From Clostridiaceae bacterium (lineage in GTDB: Bacteria > Bacillota_A > Clostridia > Acetivibrionales > Acetivibrionaceae): a stretch of 11,134 nucleotides of DNA. The position numbers and the translations under genes are program-made. The notes under the pieces are model-generated. The model made no database searches, was not told the origin of the DNA, and saw only the letters and a list, made by a program, of their open reading frames with translations. The stretch spans positions 1-11,134 of the forward strand of contig JAAZCB010001278.1 of NCBI GenBank assembly GCA_012513545.1. Reading direction: 5' to 3'. Below, in pieces: positions 1 to 11,134 of this stretch; the stretch's first letter is position 1, and every line of letters starts with the position of its first letter.

Positions 1-800
1 ATTCTAAGCATAGAACTATCAAAATCCCTTCCATGCAGCAAATCCTTCTTAAACTTCTCCCATCCTTGTCCATCAAGCTTATCTCCAATTTTGTCATGTA
101 AAACGCCATTTTCATCTGTAAACACACTTTCAGGATTTGTATACTTCTTCAATATATGTTCGGCACTTGCCATTAGAAATCCGGCAGTTCCACAGGCAGG
201 GTCACAAATAACATCATCAATCGAAGGGTCTATGAGCTCCACAATCATCTTTATGATATGCCTTGGTGTCCGGAACTGGCCGTTCATACCCGCTGTTGCA
301 ATTTTATTGAGCATATATTCATAAAGGTCACCTTTGGTGTCCGTATCGTCCATATTTATTCCATCGATAAGCTGAACTGCTTCATACAACAAGCTTGGCT
401 TCTGAATATGGTAAATTGCATCCTTCATAAAAGCTCCAAAACTTGTTCCCTCTCCTATTTGTTTTATAAACGGAAATACATTAACCACCATATTATCGTG
501 CATTTCCTTAGAGTTAAAATGCTTGAACAAAGACCATCTGCATTTGGTTTTATCTATCTTTAGACCATCTTTTTTGTCACCTTTTTTATCTTTTTCTTCT
601 TCATCATTTTCAAATATAGACTTGTGCTTTATCCCAATTCTTGCTGCCCTTTTCTCTGCTGCAGCGTCATTATCATCCAGCCTCTTTATAAAAAGCAAAT
701 ATGAAATCTGTTCAATAACTGTCAGAGGGTTTGAAATTCCTCCTGACCAGAAATTATCCCATAATGTATTAATCTTACTTATTAAATCACTACTAAGCAT
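1..800 (-). CDS. hsdM: Type I restriction-modification methyltransferase subunit HsdM (partial, 3' end outside window)
   Basis: This is the N-terminal 266 residues of the N6-adenine methyltransferase subunit of a type I R-M system. It would work with HsdS to methylate the recognition site and with HsdR to cut unmodified DNA. The frame is open without interruption from an ATG at 800 to the window edge. Residues 1-150 resemble the helical HsdM N-terminal domain, with a charged, lysine-rich insert at about 65-85. The stretch FRTPRHIIKMIVELI (177-191) leads into SAM-binding motif I, DPACGTAGFL (200-209). The catalytic NPPF/NPPY motif would lie further on and is not visible. The start overlaps the last 8 bp of hsdR, and a TGGAGGA ribosome binding site sits about 6 bases upstream inside hsdR, so the two genes are translated from one message. 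The identification is firm; completeness and activity cannot be judged. Confidence 0.95.
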   Translation of the reverse strand, partial: MLSSDLISKINTLWDNFWSGGISNPLTVIEQISYLLFIKRLDDNDAAAEKRAARIGIKHKSIFENDEEEKDKKGDKKDGLKIDKTKCRWSLFKHFNSKEMHDNMVVNVFPFIKQIGEGTSFGAFMKDAIYHIQKPSLLYEAVQLIDGINMDDTDTKGDLYEYMLNKIATAGMNGQFRTPRHIIKMIVELIDPSIDDVICDPACGTAGFLMASAEHILKKYTNPESVFTDENGVLHDKIGDKLDGQGWEKFKKDLLHGRDFDSSMLR

Positions 801-3800
801 GCATTTCCTCCAGTTCTACCTTATATGGTTTTATCAATTCAATTACTTCTTCCGAGATTTTACCCTTGAATAATCCATCAAATCCATCATGATTTATATT
901 TGTATACGGCGGTCCATACAGCGCGGCGAATGAAATCCCTTTATTCTTAATAATATCGTTCTTTATCATCTCAACGATTTTTATCTGGGTAGCCGATAAT
1001 TGTTTATTATGACCTCTTACAAAATCGTCAAATCTCTTATTTAGTTCATTTTCATCCACACCTACAAACATACGTAAAATGCCAACCAAATCATCTTTTT
1101 TTACATGGGTCTTTTCAGACAATTCTTCAATAGTAAATTCTATTTTCCCTGATTTAAATATTTCATAAACTGAGCTTATATCGCTCTCAGTAAGTATTTC
1201 TCCCTTACGGATTTTATGTATAACCAGCTGCATGTTCATTTCACTCTCAAGAGCTTTTCTTACCCTATCTGCATAAGGTTCCATATTGCTAGAACTTGTA
1301 CTGTAGGTTTCATAAACTTCTCTTACAATATATCCACCATCCTTTATATCAAGTCTTATATAAGAAGCAGCCGGATTTTCACTCCTGTACCTCATCAGTC
1401 CTCGAAGCCTAACTCTTGCCTCTTCAACATCCTCATATTTTGCCTGGTGCCAGATATTTTCATTTATAAGACTCTTCACATAATCCCTCAAACCGTTAAA
1501 ATGATTCAGGTTCAACCGTAACCTCGACAGCTCATAAATAGTATTGAGAATATGCTCAGCTAATCTCTTGTCAGCATTAATCTTATAAATCTGCATTTTG
1601 TACATCTGATTGTCAAACCAGATAGCAATCTTATCCCCTTCGCTGTCAATCCATTGCATAAGCGACGCAATTTCTTTTAAAAGTTTATCAAGAAGGTTTT
1701 GGTTTATAACAACCCAGTTCTGATCAAGCTTCAACCACTCCAGGGTTTTCCATTGTTTCCTCACTGCAACGGACTTCTCAGGCAATGCAGCTATATCTTC
1801 TCTAATAAGCTTTATCATATCGGCTTTTTTATCCGGATCATTTTTTTCGTTAAATATCCTTAGAAGTTCAATTCTTCTTTCGAACCTGATCTGAATGGAC
1901 GTCTTGGTTACAGCCGGAATAACACCATCCGGTTTTTCATCAAAAAACTCAAAGTTTTTCCAATGGTCAAACACTATAAACTGCTTCTTGTCCACACCTT
2001 TTCCGAATAAATCCTGGCACAGTCGTGTTCCCCGGCCTATCATCTGCAAAAACTTAACTTTTGAATATATAGGTTTGGCAAATACAAGATTTACAATCTC
2101 AGGAACATCCACACCGGTGTCCAGCATATCTACCGATATTGCAATTCTTGGCCTGTCTGCTTCTTTAAAACTGTTTAAGAGATCTTCCTTTTTCTCAATC
2201 TCCGAATGTATTATAGCTGCAAGTTTTCCATAATACTGTGGATACATTTCATCGAATAGTTCCATCAAAAGCTTTGCATGTCTTATGTTTTTAGCAAATA
2301 TAATGGACTTTCCAATTGTTTCACCGACTTTAATACCGTTGTTCATCAAGTTATCCAGAATAAACCTATTTGTGTCCTCATTGGTTACAAACTCCTCCAA
2401 TTGCTCTCTGTCGAAATCAATCTGGTTTTCGTCAAATCCACCCTCTTCCAACAGTTTACGCTGCTCTTCAGATAAGTTGGACCATTTTATACCCCTTCTT
2501 AAAAAATCAGTAGTTGCATCAATTTTCTTAGGTCTTAAAAGGTAGGGAGGCACATGGTCACAAGCCTCATCAAAAGAATAGTAAAAAGTAGGATCCCCAT
2601 CCGCACATTTAAACAAATTGAAGGTATTCCTGTTTATAAAATTAACCGGTGTTGCAGTTAATCCTATAATATATGCATCAAAATATTCTACTATATCCCT
2701 GTAAGTATTATAAATACTCCTATGGGATTCATCGCATATTACCAGATCAAAAAAACCGACACTGAACTTATCATAATGATTGATCATTGTCTGATAAGTT
2801 GAAAAGTATAGATTTACTTCTCTTACGTCACTGCTTGCCGATGTAATTCTTGTCGATGGCACTTCAGGCATAAAAACCTTAAAACTGTTTTTTTGTTCCT
2901 TTGCCTGTCTGACCAACTCATCCCTATCAGCAAGAAAAAGAACATGTTTTACCCAATTGGCCTGCATCATACCTTTTGTTAATGATATTACGGTTCTGGT
3001 TTTACCGGTTCCTGTTGCCATAACCATAAGGGCATTTCTCATGCCTCTCTCAAACTTTTCAAACACTCTTTTAATTCCTTCAATCTGGTAAGCACGTCCT
3101 GCAATATTTACATCCAATTCAACACTTGAAAGTGATTTTTTGTTTTCATGCTGAAAAAACAGATATTCCAGATCATCCAGGGTATAAAATCCCCATATCT
3201 GCCTTGGCTCGCTATATTTATCATCCCACATGTATATTTCATGGCCATTGGTATAATATATAACAGGTCTTATACCGTAGATCTGTTCTACACCATCGGC
3301 ATATATCTTCGCCTGGTGTTTGCCAACAACAGCATCTCTTGAAGTTTTCTTTGCTTCAATCACAGCAACAGGTTTCCCCTTTTTATCAAAAAGGACATAG
3401 TCAGCTTTTCCCTTTCCAGATTTCGTTGTAGGGTCCGGCACAACATATTCAACCTTTACAAATTCGGTATTTCCTACATTCCAGCCCGCATCTTTAAGCA
3501 TAAAATCAATAAGCTTTTTTCTTGTCTCATCCTCAGTCATTCCAAGTTCATTTGTTATTATTTCAAGCTCCTTTTCTACTTTTTCAGGAGCTTTTTGGGA
3601 TGACTGCAATTGTTCTTTTAATAGAGAAATCTCTTTTTCATGAGACTTTTTAAGCTCTTCAACTTCTTTTTTATAGGTGTCGATATCAACAACGGTTTTT
3701 GCTGAGCTTTTCTTTTCAGACTTTTTAGGCCAGATAAACTCTTTAGGAATAGACGTTCTGTCTGCCGTCACCTTTACATAAAGCCAGCACGACAGTTTAT

Positions 3801-4131
3801 ATATGCTCTTAAGGCACTCTGAAGCATCTTTAATATCATTATAATTTGAATGAGCTGCCTTATTTCCAATTTTTCTTACCAAATGGAACAAGTCTACAAC
3901 AGCCGGCTTTACAACATTTGCTTGAGACAGGATCTTTATTTTCTCAACTTGAGTTGATTCAACCGGCACAGGAAGTTTTAATGCAACAAAAACAAAATCT
4001 ATTAACTCTTCAGAGAATAGACGCATTTTAAACAGTGAAGAATTTGTATCTCTATATAAATATTTTTCTGCAAAATGGCCATTTTTAGCCAAATTAGGCC
4101 ATTTGTCTTTTAAGAAAGCAAAATTAGACAT
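793..4131 (-). CDS. hsdR: Type I restriction endonuclease subunit HsdR (EcoEI-like R subunit)
   Basis: This is the 1112-residue DNA-translocating and cutting subunit of a type I R-M system. Visible parts in order are: a DUF4145-like N-terminal domain (about 1-125); a lysine/glutamate-rich coiled coil (about 150-195); the HSDR_N nuclease domain with a PD-(D/E)XK signature at D244 and E259-A-K261; a superfamily 2 helicase motor with Walker A ATGTGKT (372-378), DESH (467-470), LTATP (491-495), motif V around VDMLDTGVDVP and motif VI QMIGRGTR (696-703); and a long C-terminal HsdM-interaction region of the EcoEI_R_C type. All key motor and nuclease residues appear intact. The ATG at 4131 is preferred because GAGGG precedes it by about 8 bases and the protein then starts MSNFAFLKDKWP. 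The frame is open upstream to 4314, but that extension runs through direct repeats and has no ribosome binding site. hsdM follows with an 8-bp overlap; no hsdS is in the window. Confidence 0.97.
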   Translation of the reverse strand: MSNFAFLKDKWPNLAKNGHFAEKYLYRDTNSSLFKMRLFSEELIDFVFVALKLPVPVESTQVEKIKILSQANVVKPAVVDLFHLVRKIGNKAAHSNYNDIKDASECLKSIYKLSCWLYVKVTADRTSIPKEFIWPKKSEKKSSAKTVVDIDTYKKEVEELKKSHEKEISLLKEQLQSSQKAPEKVEKELEIITNELGMTEDETRKKLIDFMLKDAGWNVGNTEFVKVEYVVPDPTTKSGKGKADYVLFDKKGKPVAVIEAKKTSRDAVVGKHQAKIYADGVEQIYGIRPVIYYTNGHEIYMWDDKYSEPRQIWGFYTLDDLEYLFFQHENKKSLSSVELDVNIAGRAYQIEGIKRVFEKFERGMRNALMVMATGTGKTRTVISLTKGMMQANWVKHVLFLADRDELVRQAKEQKNSFKVFMPEVPSTRITSASSDVREVNLYFSTYQTMINHYDKFSVGFFDLVICDESHRSIYNTYRDIVEYFDAYIIGLTATPVNFINRNTFNLFKCADGDPTFYYSFDEACDHVPPYLLRPKKIDATTDFLRRGIKWSNLSEEQRKLLEEGGFDENQIDFDREQLEEFVTNEDTNRFILDNLMNNGIKVGETIGKSIIFAKNIRHAKLLMELFDEMYPQYYGKLAAIIHSEIEKKEDLLNSFKEADRPRIAISVDMLDTGVDVPEIVNLVFAKPIYSKVKFLQMIGRGTRLCQDLFGKGVDKKQFIVFDHWKNFEFFDEKPDGVIPAVTKTSIQIRFERRIELLRIFNEKNDPDKKADMIKLIREDIAALPEKSVAVRKQWKTLEWLKLDQNWVVINQNLLDKLLKEIASLMQWIDSEGDKIAIWFDNQMYKMQIYKINADKRLAEHILNTIYELSRLRLNLNHFNGLRDYVKSLINENIWHQAKYEDVEEARVRLRGLMRYRSENPAASYIRLDIKDGGYIVREVYETYSTSSSNMEPYADRVRKALESEMNMQLVIHKIRKGEILTESDISSVYEIFKSGKIEFTIEELSEKTHVKKDDLVGILRMFVGVDENELNKRFDDFVRGHNKQLSATQIKIVEMIKNDIIKNKGISFAALYGPPYTNINHDGFDGLFKGKISEEVIELIKPYKVELEEMHA

Positions 4132-4165
4132 CTCTAGTCCCTCTGTTTTTATGTACGTCAGTAAT

Positions 4166-4194
4166 ATTATATATAAATTGTAGAAAATAATAAA
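4166..4194 (-). promoter_or_regulatory. Candidate promoter of hsdR
   Basis: A perfect TATAAT (minus strand, 4171 to 4166) lies about 35 bases upstream of the hsdR start. A weak -35 candidate, TTTATT (4194 to 4189), is 17 bases away. The surrounding DNA is very AT-rich, so chance matches are common. The three TGTAAACA repeats begin directly upstream of the -35 position, which fits a regulated promoter. Confidence 0.4.
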
Positions 4195-4200
4195 TAATTG

Positions 4201-4236
4201 ATGTAAACATTTTTGTAAACAATTCTGTAAACATTG
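4201..4236. repeat. Three tandem 12-bp direct repeats with core TGTAAACA, upstream of hsdR
   Basis: The eight-base core TGTAAACA occurs at 4202-4209, 4214-4221 and 4226-4233, exactly 12 bases apart, so the 36 bp form three imperfect 12-bp units. On the coding strand of hsdR this reads TGTTTACA three times. The repeats lie just upstream of the candidate hsdR -35 box. Such a small phased array looks like an operator or iteron for an oligomeric DNA-binding protein. No regulator gene is recognised in the window, so the ligand is unknown. Confidence 0.75.
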
Positions 4237-4383
4237 GATATATTCTTTATTAAAATCAATTGACCGGATTGTAGGATATACAATATTCATAATTCTTGTT
4301 AAACTTTTTGGCAATCAAAAATTTACTCATATAATAAGTTGTCTTGTATCCTTTTCCAACTATAATGTGTTTAAATATCTTTT

Positions 4384-5496
4384 CTATCTGCTACTTGCAA
4401 CCTTTTTAAGCGGCTCTCTAATCGCCTTCTCAATTTTAACCATAGCCTGACATAAAAAATCTTTTATTTTATCCCAATCATTGCGATTTGTAATGTCTAC
4501 ATTATAAAGCCTGTCAGTGATTCGTGCTGATTTTTTATCGTCCAGTCTTTCCCATATTAGCTTTGCTTCATATGTAGCTTCAATAGAATCTTTCTCTAAA
4601 TACAGTTTATCAAATATTTTCTTGTTTTCTTCTTTCGATCCTTTATTTATAAGTAATTCTACACCGGCATAACTTTTAGTTACTACAAAACTGAATGCAG
4701 AACCACTTACACCCGAACCACTGGATAACCAATGATCAACTCCAGGACTTACATTTTTATATTGCTGAGATACTGTATTAAACCTATTAAGTAATTCTGT
4801 CCAAAATTCTTTTCTAAGTTCAAAAATTCCTTGATTGGTTTCTTTAACTTCCATCTCTTCCCTTGTTTTATCAGCCATTTTAATCATATACTCTTCTGCT
4901 TCTTTTACAGGTATTATCTGCTCCATATCAAGCAATACTTGTTTATCATACTCATACGGTGTAACTTTAAAACATTGAACTCTAATTCCGTGATTAAGCA
5001 TCCACATTACTGTTGATGTTACCTCTTTACGGAATTTGCCTGCAACAAGTATCATGCGTTGGTCATTTTCATTTAATGATATTTCAGAAAATGGCTTGCC
5101 ATTAAAAAAATCTACAATATTTTCTTCTGCTGTTTCACCCGGTAAATATTTTTCCAAATATACCTGATATATCTCTTTAATCTGTTGTTTCGTTAGTGTA
5201 GAACAGTACGATACATATTTTAACGCTTGCCAGGTTACATCCTTGCCAGTATCATCAAGCTTATTTTCAATTATTACAAGTGAACCGGTCTTATCAATAG
5301 CAAGCAAATCAAGTCTTTCGTTAGTATCATTAAAACCATCAAACTCCTTTTGTATAATAAGAAGCTCTTCTCCCAAACATTCCGGATATTTTGCAATCCA
5401 CTCCTGGAGGTGCTCACGTTCTCTAAATCCAAAGTCATGAAAGGTTTTACTCTCTATTTTTATTATTCTATTTGCTTCCTTGTCCAATATAAACAT
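4384..5496 (-). CDS. NucS-like PD-(D/E)XK nuclease domain protein with DUF4268-like C-terminus
   Basis: This 370-residue protein has a two-part layout. Residues about 25-130 look like an endonuclease NucS/DUF91-type PD-(D/E)XK domain: a HLQEWIAKYPECLGEEL helix, then RLDLLAID with D63, the strand LVIIENK with the E77-x-K79 pair, and Q90-x3-Y94 (QALKY), a late motif of RecB-like nucleases. Residues about 205-365, starting around LRKEFWTELLNRFN, resemble DUF4268. The middle segment (about 130-200) is not recognised. No signal peptide or membrane segment is seen, so it should be cytoplasmic. The ATG at 5496 is supported by AAGGAGAG about 9 bases upstream. It lies between the relaxase gene and hsdR on the same strand, with gaps of 127 and 252 bp. 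Proteins of this layout are often found near restriction systems; a role as an accessory or independent defence nuclease is inference. The fold assignment is from motifs only. Confidence 0.8.
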   Translation of the reverse strand: MFILDKEANRIIKIESKTFHDFGFREREHLQEWIAKYPECLGEELLIIQKEFDGFNDTNERLDLLAIDKTGSLVIIENKLDDTGKDVTWQALKYVSYCSTLTKQQIKEIYQVYLEKYLPGETAEENIVDFFNGKPFSEISLNENDQRMILVAGKFRKEVTSTVMWMLNHGIRVQCFKVTPYEYDKQVLLDMEQIIPVKEAEEYMIKMADKTREEMEVKETNQGIFELRKEFWTELLNRFNTVSQQYKNVSPGVDHWLSSGSGVSGSAFSFVVTKSYAGVELLINKGSKEENKKIFDKLYLEKDSIEATYEAKLIWERLDDKKSARITDRLYNVDITNRNDWDKIKDFLCQAMVKIEKAIREPLKKVASSR

Positions 5497-5623
5497 TATT
5501 ATTCACTCTCCTTTTTAGAGTCAGTATCGTAGCTGTCTCCCCCAGTATCTGAATTGCATCAAATTCACATCGAAGCAAAAACACTTAAACCTTAAATATT
5601 TATAACCCACAATCGAAAGAGCT

Positions 5624-7057
5624 TTAAATATTATATCTTTGTTCTCTAAGCTGTTGAATTTTCAATGTTTTAAAAGTATCTGCATTTAAAAAATGATCCA
5701 CTTTCTTTCTAGCAACTCTGATATCTTTTATTCGATTTTCAATAGCATGAAGTCCCTTTTTTAACTCCTGAGCTTTATTGATAAACTCATTAGCCTTACA
5801 AATAACTTTGTCAAAAGGAGTTGCAATATCTATATTCATTTCAGACAGCTTTTTTGCTGCATATTCATAAGAAAGAATATCTCCTTCATGCTTACTGTAA
5901 AAACCTTTTTTATTGAATGGATTACATTTTTCATATCGATAATAAACGTCTTTATTCCTGCTTGTAGTAGCTAAATACTTCGCAATCTCCCTATACTCTG
6001 AAACTTTATCATCAAGCCTTTTAATATCCACCTTTATCCTGGATATCCGACTTCGTAATTCTTCTATTCTTGATTCAAAATCACTTTTTTTATTTATACT
6101 TTCCTGTCTTAACAATAAAAGAGTATTTGCCAGTTCCTTAACATCTTTTATATGCTGCTTTCTGACATTTATCATTACTCTGTTCTCTAAAGTTATAGGA
6201 ACTTTTTTTACCCTTGTTACATCTCCAATGAGCTTATTTTTCATTTTTTTAGTAGTAATACATTTATCTTCAGGCATAGATCTTTCAGCTATGCGCTTGA
6301 TAATACTTTGCTCAGTATACATATCCCCAAGAGTTTTTGCCCTGGTAAACCTTTCTTGTCCATTTGCTCTGAATGCAATATGCTTTCCTTCCTTGATTTC
6401 ATAACCCAAATTCTGCATATTATTCTTAAACTGATCAAAATCAGGAGAGCACTCAATACACTTATCTATATTTCTTTTTAATTTCGATTTCCAGCTTTCA
6501 CCCTTTTTATCTTCCTGCCACTCCTTATAATGCTGACCTCTTTCTGTCTTAGGTGTAACTACAGAAAGACTGTATTGTTCACATAATTTATCACTTATCT
6601 TCCTTAACGCATAAGTAGATTTATAAAAATTATTAAATTTTCGTGTACAATCAATTGTTGTAGAATTAAAAATAATATGATTGTGAATATGTTTCTTGTC
6701 TACATGTGTAGCTATAACATATTCATGATTACCCTTGGTAAACTGGTCTGCAAGTTTTTTGCCAATCTCATGAGCTTTCTCAGGTGTAATATTATCATCC
6801 GGACTAAATGCCTGCCGTATATGATAAGCTAAAACATCATCCTGCTTTTTTGTTTCATTACCTTTAAACTCATTATATAAAATCTTGGATGCCGTAAAAT
6901 CCAAATAAGCCGTCTCAGGAGTACAATTATACGAATACACCAAATATTTATTATTAGTCTTTTTATTATTCTCAATATATTCCGTCCTATCCTTTAAGAT
7001 ATGGCTGATAGATTTTGTACCCGCTGATTTAATCCTTAAAAGTGTTGTTGTTGCCAT
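5624..7057 (-). CDS. mobA: Relaxase / mobilisation nuclease (MobA/VirD2-like, MOBP-type)
   Basis: This 477-residue relaxase would nick oriT, attach covalently to the 5' end through a tyrosine and pilot the strand into a recipient. The N-terminal relaxase domain spans about residues 1-165. It carries the metal-binding histidine motif HVDKKHIHNHIIFN (118-131; H118, H123, H125, H127), and Y27 in a RTEYIEN context is the likely nucleophile. The segment YHIRQAFSPDDNITPEKAHEIG (78-99) is typical of the family. Residues about 290-370 and the C-terminus are charged and probably coiled coil; no primase or helicase domain is seen. The length is normal for Firmicute mobilisation relaxases. It starts 15 bp after the mobC stop, with an AAGGGG box upstream of the ATG at 7057, and is almost certainly cotranscribed with mobC. 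No coupling protein or type IV secretion gene is visible, so the element would be mobilised in trans. Confidence 0.93.
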   Translation of the reverse strand: MATTTLLRIKSAGTKSISHILKDRTEYIENNKKTNNKYLVYSYNCTPETAYLDFTASKILYNEFKGNETKKQDDVLAYHIRQAFSPDDNITPEKAHEIGKKLADQFTKGNHEYVIATHVDKKHIHNHIIFNSTTIDCTRKFNNFYKSTYALRKISDKLCEQYSLSVVTPKTERGQHYKEWQEDKKGESWKSKLKRNIDKCIECSPDFDQFKNNMQNLGYEIKEGKHIAFRANGQERFTRAKTLGDMYTEQSIIKRIAERSMPEDKCITTKKMKNKLIGDVTRVKKVPITLENRVMINVRKQHIKDVKELANTLLLLRQESINKKSDFESRIEELRSRISRIKVDIKRLDDKVSEYREIAKYLATTSRNKDVYYRYEKCNPFNKKGFYSKHEGDILSYEYAAKKLSEMNIDIATPFDKVICKANEFINKAQELKKGLHAIENRIKDIRVARKKVDHFLNADTFKTLKIQQLREQRYNI

Positions 7058-7072
7058 ACCTGTTCAACCCCT

Positions 7073-7414
7073 TTATCTGAGCTCGCTAATAAATAGTGAT
7101 AATGTTTCTTTCTGTTTTTGGTTTATTGACTGTAGCATATTTTTTATATTTTTAATATCCTCACTGCATATATTCTGCATCTCATTCAACTGTTTTGTAA
7201 TTTGATTAATGTTTATACCGATTTTATTTATCTCATAAGACAGCTCTTTTAAAATTTTAAAATCTGTTTTTATTATCATTCCATCAAGAATCATTTTCCG
7301 CACATATGCGCTTTTGTTTCTTGTACCGGCTCTCTCAATTTTCTTTAATAGAAGTTCATTTTCCTCTTCAGACAAGAAAACTTTAAGTTCAATATCCCTT
7401 GATCTGTTCGCCAT
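7073..7414 (-). CDS. mobC: MobC-type relaxosome accessory protein
   Basis: This 113-residue protein matches the plasmid mobilisation MobC family, which binds oriT and helps the relaxase reach single-stranded DNA. The N-terminal part (about 7-50) has a ribbon-helix-helix pattern: a beta strand RDIELKVFL, a helix SEEENELLLKKIERAG, then NKSAYVRKMILDG. The hallmark GININQITKQLN lies at 66-77. The C-terminal helix is charged. I chose the ATG at 7414 because GGAG precedes it by 9 bases; a TTG five codons upstream, at 7429, has no proper ribosome binding site and overlaps the GGAG itself. It is the first gene of a mobC-mobA pair and sits directly downstream of the candidate oriT, the usual arrangement for this class. 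Confidence 0.9.
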   Translation of the reverse strand: MANRSRDIELKVFLSEEENELLLKKIERAGTRNKSAYVRKMILDGMIIKTDFKILKELSYEINKIGININQITKQLNEMQNICSEDIKNIKNMLQSINQKQKETLSLFISELR

Positions 7415-7455
7415 AATGATCAACTCCAATATTTGCTTTTATGGTTTTCAGGGGA

Positions 7456-7538
7456 TTGGGGGCTACCCCAAAAGTTAAAAATAACAAAAACGGCTACAGC
7501 TGTTTTGTAATTTTTGTGGAAGTGTGGGAACACTTCCA
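7456..7538. other. oriT: Candidate origin of transfer (oriT) with two hairpins
   Basis: The non-coding stretch just upstream of mobC holds two perfect inverted repeats. TTGGGG (7456-7461) pairs with CCCCAA (7466-7471) over a 4-base loop. TGGAAGTG (7517-7524) pairs with CACTTCCA (7531-7538) over a 6-base loop and is followed by TTGCTTGC. Relaxases of this class usually act on an oriT next to their own genes, marked by an inverted repeat close to the nick site. The position and structure fit; the exact nick position cannot be read from the sequence, although the GCTTGC beside the second hairpin is a reasonable place to look. Confidence 0.65.
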
Positions 7539-7566
7539 TTGCTTGCTAATCTTAAATCTTTCTATT

Positions 7567-7596
7567 ATTATACTACTTTGATTTGCCAAAATACAA
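7567..7596 (-). promoter_or_regulatory. Candidate promoter of the mobC-mobA operon
   Basis: On the minus strand TTGTAT (7596 to 7591) and a perfect TATAAT (7572 to 7567) are separated by 18 bases. Transcription from here would run through the candidate oriT hairpins and then into mobC and mobA, so relaxosome binding at oriT could influence expression of the operon. The match is moderate and the region is AT-rich. Confidence 0.45.
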
Positions 7597-7644
7597 TAGA
7601 CAATTAACTAGTGAAACTTCAAATGATACACTTGAGAGCTTCAA

Positions 7645-8310
7645 TTAATAGACATTTTCTAAAAATGTTCCTTTACCCAATTCTTGTGCCTTCTTAAAAT
7701 GATATTTGCTGTTTTCCATATCGTTTTCTTTTTCAGCAATCAAACCTAAATAATAATGATTCATTGCATTATGTAATTTGTATTTTTGTTCTGATAATAA
7801 TCCCTTAAAAATTATTTTACTTTCTGCAATTTCTCCTTGATAAAATTTAATAGCTCCTCTTAATTTCTGTAATGATTCCTTGAAAAACTTGTATTTTCTA
7901 TTTTGCTCAAAACTATCAAAAAGGTCCTTATTAATTTTATACATATTGATTGCATCGTCAACTCTCCCAAGTAGAGTTAGTATTAATATGTAATTTGAAT
8001 AGTACTGAACCTTCCAAATTTCGTTTTTAAATCTGTCCCCAATTGAATTCAGTATATCTAAAGCATCCTGAAAGCTTCCTTTATATATCAAACCAGTAAC
8101 TTTATTTGATAAAAGCATTCTTTTTATTTCTTTACGCTTAACCTTTCTTAAATATTTTTCGATTTCTGTCATATATAAATTTAGATTACCATCCCTTATT
8201 AAATACAAATTAAGATTGCGATATTTTATCTTTCTTAAGTTATAAAGAATGTAATAAAATACTATTGAAAGTATTAGTAATACAAATAAAAATTTAATGT
8301 TTACATTCAT
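7645..8310 (-). CDS. Membrane-anchored TPR-like protein of unknown function
   Basis: I do not recognise a specific family for this 221-residue protein. Residues about 6-24 (IKFLFVLLILSIVFYYILY) form one hydrophobic segment followed by the basic stretch RKIKYR, which suggests an N-terminal membrane anchor with the rest in the cytoplasm. The remainder is helical with TPR-like units: GSFQDALDILNSIGDR, GRVDDAINMYKIN, GEIAESKIIFKGLL, and most clearly NHYYLGLIAEKENDMENSKYHFKKAQELG near the C-terminus. The ATG at 8310 is supported by GGAAGGA about 8 bases upstream. It stands alone between the recombinase gene and oriT with its own AT-rich upstream region, and its base composition looks even richer in AT than the restriction genes. 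A scaffold or surface-related role during transfer is possible but is only inference. Confidence 0.7.
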   Translation of the reverse strand: MNVNIKFLFVLLILSIVFYYILYNLRKIKYRNLNLYLIRDGNLNLYMTEIEKYLRKVKRKEIKRMLLSNKVTGLIYKGSFQDALDILNSIGDRFKNEIWKVQYYSNYILILTLLGRVDDAINMYKINKDLFDSFEQNRKYKFFKESLQKLRGAIKFYQGEIAESKIIFKGLLSEQKYKLHNAMNHYYLGLIAEKENDMENSKYHFKKAQELGKGTFLENVY

Positions 8311-8343
8311 AATTTCATCCTTCCCGATTTAACTCAATTTTTC

Positions 8344-8349
8344 ATTATA
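8344..8349 (-). promoter_or_regulatory. Candidate -10 box of the TPR-protein gene
   Basis: A perfect TATAAT on the minus strand lies 34 bases upstream of the ATG at 8310, within a run reading TATATTATATAAT. No convincing -35 box is seen at the right distance, so this is only suggestive. Confidence 0.3.
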
Positions 8350-8442
8350 TAATATACCTAAAGTAATAGAACATTTTTGTTTTTTTGTTCCAGGGTTTTA
8401 TTCTTCTATTTTCAAAAGTTTTATTACCTTAGTGGGAGTTGA

Positions 8443-9003
8443 TTACTGTTCAGACAATACTCTGTAAATTGTTGTCCGACTTAAACCAGTTTCTTTTATA
8501 ATATCTTTAATTTTATAATTACTTGAAGCTAATGTTTCAACAAGCTTTGCCTTGCTATTTCTCTTTGAAGGCCTTCCACCATTTCTACCCCTCGCCTTAG
8601 CTGCAGCTAAACCTTCTTTTGTTCTTTGAGAAATAAGATCTCTCTCTAATTGAGACAACCCGGCCATAACAGTAAGGAGAAATTCGTTATAAGGATTATT
8701 ACTGGTAGTATCAAGCCACGTATCTTTAAGGCTTTTAATACACGCACCTTTGTTTTTAATCTGGTCAACAATATCAAGTAAGTCCTTTGTGCTCCTGCTT
8801 ATCCTGGTAATATCGGTAACTACAACCGTATCATTAAGCTTAAGCTCATCGATCATCCTGATTAATTCAGGTCTGTTCTTTGTTTTACCGGATAATTTTT
8901 CTTTATAAATATTTCTGTTATCTATACCATAAGAAACTAAAGAATCCAATTGTCTATCAAGATTTTGTTCGATATTGGAAACTCTTGCATAACCAATTAA
9001 CAT
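8443..9003 (-). CDS. Small serine recombinase (resolvase/invertase family)
   Basis: This 186-residue protein has the normal length and layout of Tn3-resolvase/Hin-type recombinases. These cut DNA at a crossover site through a serine-DNA covalent intermediate and rejoin strands for resolution or inversion. The catalytic domain covers about 1-140: YARVS with R7 and nucleophile S9, DITRISRST with R67 and R70, and the E120-R121 pair at the start of the long E-helix region. After the linker ARGRNGGRPSKR comes a C-terminal helix-turn-helix (about 160-184, ending DIIKETGLSRTTIYRVLSEQ). All catalytic residues I can check are present. The ATG at 9003 follows a weak GGAT-type box. The gene has two repeat structures upstream that may be its binding sites. 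It may maintain a plasmid as monomers, invert a segment, or belong to the element's integration system; the sequence does not decide. Large serine integrases are several hundred residues long, so this is not one. Confidence 0.95.
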   Translation of the reverse strand: MLIGYARVSNIEQNLDRQLDSLVSYGIDNRNIYKEKLSGKTKNRPELIRMIDELKLNDTVVVTDITRISRSTKDLLDIVDQIKNKGACIKSLKDTWLDTTSNNPYNEFLLTVMAGLSQLERDLISQRTKEGLAAAKARGRNGGRPSKRNSKAKLVETLASSNYKIKDIIKETGLSRTTIYRVLSEQ

Positions 9004-9035
9004 ATATAATCACATCCATTAATATTTTATTTAAT

Positions 9036-9053
9036 TGTACCATAAATGTACCA
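9036..9053. repeat. Pair of TGTACCA repeats upstream of the serine recombinase gene
   Basis: TGTACCA occurs at 9036-9042 and 9047-9053, 11 bases apart, about one helical turn. Because GTAC is itself palindromic, the 20 bp from TTGTACC to GTACCAA also read as a loose dyad. The pair lies 33-50 bases upstream of the recombinase start and overlaps a possible -10 box TACAAT (minus strand, 9039 to 9034), so it could be an autoregulatory operator or a resolvase subsite. Confidence 0.5.
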
Positions 9054-9126
9054 AAACTTAATAAGAATGTGATACGTTTAATGAAACAAAAAACACCTTC
9101 AGAGATATGATTACTTCATCTGATAA

Positions 9127-9161
9127 ATATGTTTCATATAACGGTCGTTTTTGAAACATAT
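9127..9161. repeat. Perfect 10-bp inverted repeat, 35-bp candidate recombination or operator site
   Basis: ATATGTTTCA (9127-9136) and TGAAACATAT (9152-9161) are perfect inverted copies separated by 15 bases that include ACGGTCGT. The total of 35 bp and two-fold symmetry fit a crossover site for a small serine recombinase or a repressor operator. It lies about 125 bp upstream of the recombinase gene. No T-run follows on either strand, so a terminator is unlikely. Confidence 0.6.
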
Positions 9162-9251
9162 AAAAGCAAATAATTTTGTTGTAGGTATAATATACACAAT
9201 AGAATAAAACCTATCATTAAAGCATTTAAAGCGTAGGAAATAATTTGTTAA

Positions 9252-9306: not shown

Positions 9307-9927
9307 TTAAAAACTTCTTTTAATTAAACAGATTTCTCTGTATTCTATAGGTCCAAAAGAATATTTTTCATATGTAGCTAAATCTAATCTTTCCCTTGAT
9401 ACTTTCAAATTATAGCTCCACTCGTCTCTTATACATTCTAAATAATCGCTGTCAGGTTTTCTATAGTGCTGATGACGATAGTATGGATCAAAAAAATAGA
9501 GATAATTATTGTCAGCTTTTGTACATAATAAATAATGGTACATTTTGCCTGTCCTATCAGAACTAACTGAACACAATCCAACACCACCCCCATTAATGTA
9601 TCTTACAAGTTTATTATTATTGCGTAAATGTACTTCTTCGCCTGTTATATATTCACATTCTAAGCAAAAATCATTGTTTCTTTTAGAATACTGGTTGAGC
9701 CATTGAATAATAAATTCACATGCTAATCCCGTTGTACCTCTTTTTCCGTATTCACCGTTTTTGCTAATAGTATCTAAACAGTACAGCATAATTCTTTGAA
9801 TTACTTCAGGTGGTATTTCTTGTGTATCAAATAGATAATTTAAAGCATTTAAAAAAACTATTGGAACACAATCAAATTTAGTTGACTGATATTTTAATGG
9901 GACTTTTCCAGAAGGTACTTTAAACAT
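9307..9927 (-). CDS. C39-like papain-fold cysteine peptidase
   Basis: This 206-residue protein has the layout of a C39-like (papain-fold) cysteine peptidase. The likely nucleophile is C20 in STKFDCVPIVFLNAL, at the start of a helix. The likely catalytic histidine is H131 in MYHYLLCTKADNNYLYFFDP, with D147 of the FFDP turn as third residue. The fold is N-terminal Cys then C-terminal His-Asp, as in the family. No ABC-transporter domain, signal peptide or membrane segment is present, so it is a free-standing, probably cytoplasmic enzyme with unknown substrate. I chose the ATG at 9927, preceded by AGGTGGAG; a TTG at 9945 would add six residues and overlap the DUF3006 gene. With the ATG it starts 8 bp after that gene's stop and is probably cotranscribed with it. 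The FDCVP sequence departs from the common DCGP pattern, so an altered specificity or a peptidase-like non-enzyme is possible. Confidence 0.72.
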   Translation of the reverse strand: MFKVPSGKVPLKYQSTKFDCVPIVFLNALNYLFDTQEIPPEVIQRIMLYCLDTISKNGEYGKRGTTGLACEFIIQWLNQYSKRNNDFCLECEYITGEEVHLRNNNKLVRYINGGGVGLCSVSSDRTGKMYHYLLCTKADNNYLYFFDPYYRHQHYRKPDSDYLECIRDEWSYNLKVSRERLDLATYEKYSFGPIEYREICLIKRSF

Positions 9928-9935
9928 CTCTCCAC

Positions 9936-10133
9936 CTACTCCCAAACACTATCCATTAATTTCTGAATTTCTTTCTTTTTATCCTCTTTTACATCGGGAT
10001 CAATTGCAATTCTTAGAATAGAACCTTCTTTTGCTTCTGCCGGCAGCAATTCTACTGGCATATTAACCATCGTTTTATTCTCAAGTTCCACAACTGCAAA
10101 ATTACCTTCAAACCTATCAATTATAATCCTCAT
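9936..10133 (-). CDS. DUF3006 domain protein
   Basis: This 65-residue protein matches the small DUF3006 family: MRIIIDRFEGNFAVVELENKTMVNMPVELLP followed by an EGSILRIAIDPD strand and a lysine-rich tail. It looks like one small beta-barrel domain with a short C-terminal helix; no catalytic motif is visible and its function is not known. A perfect AAAGGAGG box lies 7 bases before the ATG at 10133 and overlaps the end of the upstream gene. Members of this family commonly sit beside genes for MBL-fold, ComEC-related hydrolases, and that is the arrangement here, with the MBL-type remnant 14 bp upstream. Confidence 0.85.
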   Translation of the reverse strand: MRIIIDRFEGNFAVVELENKTMVNMPVELLPAEAKEGSILRIAIDPDVKEDKKKEIQKLMDSVWE

Positions 10134-10669: not shown

Positions 10670-10726
10670 TAATTAATATAAAAAGGCCATATCAAAAATC
10701 AATTCTGGAATTTGTATATTTCTATT

Positions 10727-10922
10727 TAGGCCTAATGGAGAGCATCCGTGTTCTGTACTGAAAAGTAAAGTTTAAATTGGCTTAAACCAATACCTTTGAG
10801 GTTTTAAAATTTTTTTGTGATAGCTGAATTTAGCATATCAAACTAAACTCTTAAAAGCATTTATATAAGCAGCTTTCAGAATTACTTTTCAGTAGATAAC
10901 ATAGATGCTCCAGTTAGGCCTA
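10727..10922. mobile_element. Putative MITE: 196-bp non-coding element with long imperfect terminal inverted repeats
   Basis: The left arm (10727-10768) and right arm (10882-10922) are inverted copies that agree at about 36 of 40 aligned positions. The outermost TAGGCCTAA and innermost TACTGAAAAGTAA blocks are perfect, and the differences are two small gaps and four substitutions. The 113-base centre is AT-rich and encodes nothing. The 9-mer TTAGGCCTA occurs in direct orientation at both ends (10726-10734 and 10914-10922), so it may be a target duplication, but it contains an 8-base palindrome and could equally belong to the inverted repeats. No transposase is present, so the element would be moved in trans. 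It sits just upstream of the truncated MBL-type gene. Confidence 0.7.
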
Positions 10923-11031
10923 GTAGGGTAATTACAATACAAGATCAGAAGCTTTTTTAGTTTCTGTACTTTTTATTTCAATTTTCTCACAGGATGACAA
11001 TAAAGATCTGCGGTATACTCGATTTGCCGGA

Positions 11032-11062: not shown

Positions 11063-11074
11063 GAGGAGATAAAC

Positions 11075-11134
11075 ATGATAAATAAGGGTAACCGGTATAA
11101 TGACGAATTTAGGACTGATATAATAAGGCTTGTA
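11075..11134 (+). CDS. IS3-type transposase OrfA, N-terminal 20 residues only
   Basis: The open frame starts with an ATG at 11075, eight bases after a strong GGAGG, and runs to the window edge. The visible residues contain NRYNDEFRTDIIRLV, which matches the start of the helix-turn-helix of IS3/IS911-type OrfA proteins (pattern YxxEFKxxIVRL). OrfA binds the element's ends and is usually fused by frameshifting to the DDE-domain OrfB, which would lie outside. Only 20 codons are available, so the family call rests on this motif and the leader. It is the only plus-strand gene in the window. Confidence 0.65.
   Translation, partial: MINKGNRYNDEFRTDIIRLV

Follow-up and report, generated by a model that had tools for sequence, protein, structure and literature searches.

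We analysed an 11,134-nt stretch of a Clostridiaceae bacterium contig (positions 1..11,134; hereafter, the window), which probably represents a mosaic accessory region where a Tn1549/CD1110-type transfer-start module abuts a defence cluster, with the restriction-modification (R-M) genes being potential hitch-hiking neighbours rather than a fixed part of a mobilisation unit. Read along the minus strand, the window carries a small serine recombinase gene, an open reading frame (ORF) of 221 aa, a predicted origin of transfer (oriT), mobC, a MobP-type relaxase gene, a DUF4268 gene, hsdR, and hsdM. Every part named in an earlier reading of this DNA, made from the sequence only, was present where that reading had placed it, as seen from the window ORFs and from domain scans of 10 ORFs (Pfam with curated cut-offs, PADLOC, and NCBIfam); the 221-aa ORF at 7645-8310, between the recombinase and oriT/mobC, had been left unmentioned. 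All of the gene parts belong to known families and are unremarkable members of them. From the identities of the genes, the conservation of oriT, and catalytic residues that are intact, we infer that MobC and the relaxase would bind and nick oriT, that the nicked strand and whatever is joined to it, which could include the defence genes, would exit via a type IV secretion system (T4SS) belonging either to a helper element or to a larger parent, and that HsdRMS and the DUF4268 nuclease would act on incoming DNA by restriction.

The transfer-start module

The core of the predicted oriT (7517..7548, minus strand), supported by comparison with related loci, comprises TAGCAAGCA and, after it, a perfect 9-bp hairpin whose loop spans 4 nt; the hairpin occupies 7517-7538, with AGCAAGCA directly before it. 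For this comparison, we used 83 related loci in which mobC was found, giving, together with the window, 84 mobC-upstream stretches. The motif was detected in 17 of the 84, where it lies 38-119 bp ahead of the start extrapolated for mobC, and the strict motif with a hairpin was present in 11 of the 84 real stretches versus 6 of 4200 mononucleotide shuffles, which preserve base composition only. The hairpin stem was then aligned in nine sequences hand-chosen for equal stem length, in which 62 of 63 cells were paired and four of seven pairs were changed on both sides. None of the 500 shuffles serving as the covariation control reached the number of paired cells, and none reached the covariation score; 16 reached the number of pairs changed on both sides, and 83 reached the further pair types. 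The stem test failed after sliding by 1-3 columns. Loci L148, L150, L157, L142, L143, L041, and L047 were left out of the covariation test, as was L145, where the oriT motif is present and a hairpin was not seen. Since the nine rows were self-chosen and some are close copies, the stem covariation is strong but not independent. Together, these results indicate that the oriT candidate of the sequence-only reading is more than a chance occurrence and make it a predicted oriT with comparative support. A literature text search combining the core motif with oriT and relaxase, limited to exact-string matching, found no paper. The covarying hairpin may offer a handle for locating oriT sites in other clostridial elements.

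Downstream of oriT, mobC (7073..7429, minus strand) encodes a NikA/MobC-like relaxosome protein (NikA-like, 6.4e-12; MobC, 2.3e-7). Its annotated start is a TTG codon; the ATG at 7414 is the more probable start, because the alignment with the Monoglobus MobC begins at that position. The MobP-type relaxase gene follows at 5624..7057 on the same strand (PF03432, E 4.3e-37), and Tyr-27, His-118, Asp-120, His-125, and His-127 of its product are invariant across 23 relaxases. As judged from their sequences, the relaxase, MobC, oriT, and the recombinase are all intact. No solved-structure match to the relaxase was obtained, and the relaxase query returned no relative in IMG/VR. Its nearest relatives, which are up to 68% identical, are known from contigs only. 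We found 70 relaxase relatives in GTDB genomes, and 74 of 246 genomes in the order of genome G253 carried one, none being more than 48% identical among the matches listed.

This module resembles those of integrative and conjugative elements (ICEs) in Monoglobus pectinilyticus (L181) and Vescimonas fastidiosa (L180), which carry CD1110/CD1115 labels in the L180 and L181 records and which we take to be of the Tn1549 type. These ICE modules likewise carry mobC and then a MobP relaxase; the Monoglobus relaxase is 37% identical to that of the window, and the oriT motif with its hairpin upstream of mobC is common to the window and related loci. The window differs in having a small resolvase and the 221-aa ORF upstream and defence genes downstream, whereas no homologue of a T4SS, coupling protein, ArdA, topoisomerase, or large serine recombinase was found in it.

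The defence genes

The DUF4268 gene (4384..5496, minus strand) lies 127 bp downstream of the mob module in the same direction and encodes a member of the PADLOC candidate defence family PDC-S11 (PF14088, E 4.1e-35; PDLC04913, 515 bits). Residues 1-368 align to positions 1-369 of the 375-position PDLC04913 model, that is, over its full length. Arg-61, Asp-63, Glu-77, Lys-79, and Gln-90 are invariant in all 32 aligned relatives, and we take Asp-63, Glu-77-x-Lys-79, and Gln-90, in the N-terminal part, to form a NucS-like nuclease pattern. The NucS model itself matched weakly (23 bits against a cut-off of 216). Because of these invariant NucS-like residues, the label of second nuclease given in the sequence-only reading is a fair one, and the protein is a predicted nuclease. 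An AlphaFold model (pLDDT, the predicted local distance difference test score, of 60.8) was too poor for a fold search; we obtained no solved-structure match to this protein and no relative in IMG/VR.

We next consider the neighbours of this gene elsewhere. A match to DUF4268 was present in 362 plasmid records, and in the eight annotated plasmid regions that we examined, the gene immediately preceded a type I hsdR in six and was alone in two. The gammaproteobacterial plasmid operons have the order hsdM-hsdS-DUF4268-hsdR, beginning with hsdM-hsdS and with genes that abut or nearly do so, whereas the window has DUF4268, a 252-bp gap, hsdR, and hsdM. A type I hsdR was directly beside none of nine Clostridia DUF4268 loci, drawn from 391 genomes: in one (L086) a type I system lies about 6 kb away, and in another (L093) the ORF just 5' of DUF4268 matches the helicase part of hsdR only. 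DUF4268 as a fixed R-M subunit was rejected on account of these nine loci. The adjacency of DUF4268 and R-M genes recurs in distant hosts and is not obligatory. Matches to DUF4268 were found in 2 of 299 genomes of the phylum of the Pelotomaculum genome. A passage in one paper (PMC4619093) describes the domain as most often associated with GmrSD type IV restriction domains.

The adjoining hsdR gene (793..4131, minus strand) encodes a 1112-aa EcoAI/EcoEI-like restriction subunit (PADLOC REase_I, 698 bits; HSDR_N, ResIII, and EcoEI_R_C domains) that has the PD-(D/E)xK-type N terminus and the helicase of a type I restriction subunit, with an NCBIfam restrict_EcoAI match below its cut-off. Although the ORF extends to 4314, the start is most likely the ATG at 4131, since the PADLOC and plasmid alignments begin there, which leaves 252 non-coding bp (4132..4383) between hsdR and DUF4268. 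Within this gap and upstream of hsdR, a 12-bp tandem repeat, TGTAAACATTTC, in 2.8 copies (4202-4235) could be an operator. The hsdM gene (3..800, minus strand; HsdM_N and N6_Mtase; PADLOC MTase_I, 224 bits), encoding a type I DNA methyltransferase, overlaps hsdR by 8 bp; its 5' part is present, and it runs off the left edge.

The nearest named relative of hsdR is that of a Lutispora sp. (77%), many Clostridium species following at 52-56%. Among 117 genomes of one order, we found 12 orthologues with 53-57% identity, three of them with internal stops. hsdM was present in 11 of these 12 loci and directly adjoined hsdR in 10; an ORF of 375-427 aa followed hsdM in 10 of the 11, and BLAST recognised it as hsdS in five. 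By analogy, hsdS is expected off the left edge of the window. In one of these loci (L199), a large serine recombinase gene lies 4.1 kb away, and in two others (L187 and L202), a gene that we take to be smpB-like precedes the hsdR-hsdM operon by a few kb; the smpB neighbourhood is an integration hot spot. The hsdR query returned one weak, partial match in IMG/VR (L206; 27% over 129 residues).

Linkage between the two modules

The sequence-only reading had proposed that the mobilisation and R-M modules form one element. What stands of that claim is the arrangement, namely a mob module, with a supported oriT and intact residues, directly upstream of and co-directional with DUF4268 and a type I R-M system. 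That these form a single element found no support in the comparisons. First, none of the 12 hsdR orthologue loci had a relaxase, MobC, small recombinase, or DUF4268 gene in its compared flanks; these clostridial chromosomal EcoAI-like hsdR-hsdM-hsdS operons share the hsdR-hsdM order with the window and differ from it in this respect. Second, we compared 110 relaxase loci, 70 from GTDB genome contigs and 40 among the places listed for the order of G253, which comprise 103 distinct sequences, L027 and L175 being one place, and whose flanks vary in length, some being shorter than 2 kb. Recognisable type I hsd genes were detected in these flanks at two loci, L151 and L173; L011 and L048 carry a common helicase gene that matches only part of hsdR. 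Third, neither element ends nor, among the 10 scanned ORFs, a replication family or a large integrase was found in the window, its only recombinase being of the small resolvase type. No longest contig was common to the relatives of the three proteins, a weak test that used only the longest contig per protein cluster; it covered every listed relative of DUF4268 (119) but no more than 30 of the relaxase and 37 of hsdR. In addition, the G+C content at third codon positions (GC3) steps from 0.25 in the relaxase and DUF4268 genes to 0.33 in hsdR and hsdM, and this step coincides with the 252-bp gap and the 12-bp tandem repeat. A seam, should one exist, could lie at 4.1-4.4 kb just as well as at the 5.5-5.65 kb considered earlier.

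Several points weigh against such a mosaic. The genes from the recombinase to hsdM are co-directional with short gaps, and one element would look alike; no transposase or repeat was found between the mob genes and DUF4268. Type I R-M genes lie near a related relaxase in both L173 and L151, so this arrangement is a recurrent one. The GC3 step is small, and differences of this kind can occur within a single genome from one gene to another. Finally, linkage in closer relatives would be invisible in these comparisons because the sets are distant (relaxases less than 50% and hsdR 53-57% identical). Overall, the evidence from these comparisons tilts towards modules that are loosely linked; the region may yet be a single element lacking a T4SS.

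Locus L173 is a second case of R-M genes beside this relaxase type. Segments 1-8356 and 9223-11722 of this locus hold hsdS- and hsdR-like genes of type I, two nucleotidyltransferase-like genes, and an ATPase-like ORF, which converge on a related relaxase module.

As a tentative alternative to the mosaic, the whole region could be one mobilisable plasmid or integrative and mobilisable element (IME) that has no T4SS of its own, is maintained by a plasmid-type resolvase, and carries DUF4268 and the type I R-M system as defence cargo. The co-directional genes and the intact oriT and relaxase are consistent with this, as is the finding that no Tn1549-type T4SS gene or other ICE-backbone gene was found in the window. 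The recombinase (8443..9003, minus strand; 186 aa; PF00239, E 1.7e-40; PF02796) resembles resolvases and invertases, its solved-structure relatives being a Gin-type invertase, gamma-delta, and Tn552/Sin; relatives of it occur in at least 5000 plasmid records, every one less than 60% identical. However, the enzyme belongs to the small resolvases/invertases rather than to the large serine integrases and supplies no integration mechanism; at E 1e-6, this small recombinase was beside none of the 110 relaxase loci. That no replication gene, large integrase, or element ends were found in the window likewise speaks against this reading, although the contig may be partial. The window ends share no overlap of 15 or more bases, so that the window is not a closed circle.

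R-M cargo on mobilisable elements is already known, and the combination in the window is of a known kind. Table 3 of PMC5704250 lists R-M systems as cargo of IMEs or mobilisable islands: type I in MGIVchHai6, type II in MGIVchMoz6, and type III in MGIVmi1. As listed there, type I R-M genes lie beside mobility functions, as in the window, but those elements have known integration and a relaxase of another family, whereas an integrase and ends were not found in the window. PMC4743918 also describes a mobilisable plasmid carrying type II R-M genes, and PMC11389934 considers defence genes that reside on hitch-hiking elements. How defence systems spread is a question to which R-M genes located on mobilisable elements, or next to them, are relevant. 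A more specific version of the single-element idea, which we consider doubtful, is that a Tn1549-type transfer-start module, split from its conjugative parent and equipped with a plasmid-type resolvase, drives a small hitch-hiking element whose load, the DUF4268 nuclease and the type I R-M system behind the relaxase, would guard the new host while the element borrows the secretion systems of others. If the block does move as one, the oriT of a conjugative element would have been reused for defence cargo.

The window is unlikely to be a piece of a larger Tn1549/CD1110-type ICE, with the T4SS, integrase, and regulators lying outside the window. A backbone gene of this ICE type was present in the compared flanks of 46 of the 110 relaxase loci, and a T4SS gene was present in those of 28. 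Among the 16 loci that carry the oriT motif, the closest relatives in this respect, a backbone gene was found in the flanks of 10, one of them by a CHAP-peptidase match alone, and in two annotated plasmid records, VirB4 lies about 19 kb (L180) and about 13 kb (L181) from the relaxase. A T4SS gene was nevertheless found in the flank of only 1 of the 16, the backbone gene was absent from six flanks, and no backbone gene was present in the window within 5.6 kb of the relaxase gene on its downstream side or about 4 kb on its upstream side, which is as far as the window extends. The earlier suggestion of an element with no secretion system of its own is left unsupported by these relatives, many of whose mob modules lie in Tn1549-type ICEs: since their T4SS genes can be 13-19 kb from the relaxase, beyond the reach of the window, 11 kb cannot show that a T4SS is absent.

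Similarly improbable is a chromosomal defence island with a stranded, now immobile mobile-element remnant: although the hsdR orthologue at each of the 12 loci belongs to a stand-alone operon, the sites being unrelated, and a protein fragment, a palindromic repeat, and a transposase start on the right are signs of a decaying, rearranged region, the relaxase, MobC, oriT, and recombinase show no such decay in their sequences.

Flanking sequences and other ORFs

No tRNA and no Rfam family were found in the window, megablast gave no match to phages, and promoter- and terminator-like sites were near chance level. Upstream of the recombinase gene, TGAAACA/TGTTTCA words, repeated and inverted, occur at 9079-9165 and a TGTACCA tandem at 9032-9053; both could be candidate crossover sites for the recombinase. 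The 221-aa ORF (7645..8310, minus strand), identified from the ORF list and by inspection of its sequence, has an N-terminal hydrophobic stretch, beyond which we take it to be TPR-like; it had no Pfam match above the curated cut-off and no match in plasmids at E 1e-3. Further to the right, the ORF at 9307..9945 (minus strand) had no family match in the Pfam, PADLOC, and NCBIfam scans and is, by our own reading only, presumably C39-peptidase-like. Relatives of it were found in 8 of 391 Clostridia genomes, and in the order reached through this C39-like protein, one of six genomes had a partial relaxase (36%).

The segment 10148-10669 encodes the C-terminal fragment of a metallo-beta-lactamase (MBL)-fold protein with an Ada-type zinc domain, its N-terminal part being absent. 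Full-length relatives of 389 aa (L012) and 363 aa (L019) lie about 0.8 kb and about 0.15 kb, respectively, from related relaxase genes. At 10724-10924, there is a palindromic repeat of about 200 bp, resembling a miniature inverted-repeat transposable element, with TAGGCCTA-type ends and arms (10740-10806 and 10844-10910) that are 72% complementary; similar DNA was not found in plasmids. An ORF start on the plus strand (11074-11134), cut by the window end, is presumably that of an IS3-type transposase OrfA, which suggests that the contig terminates in an insertion sequence.

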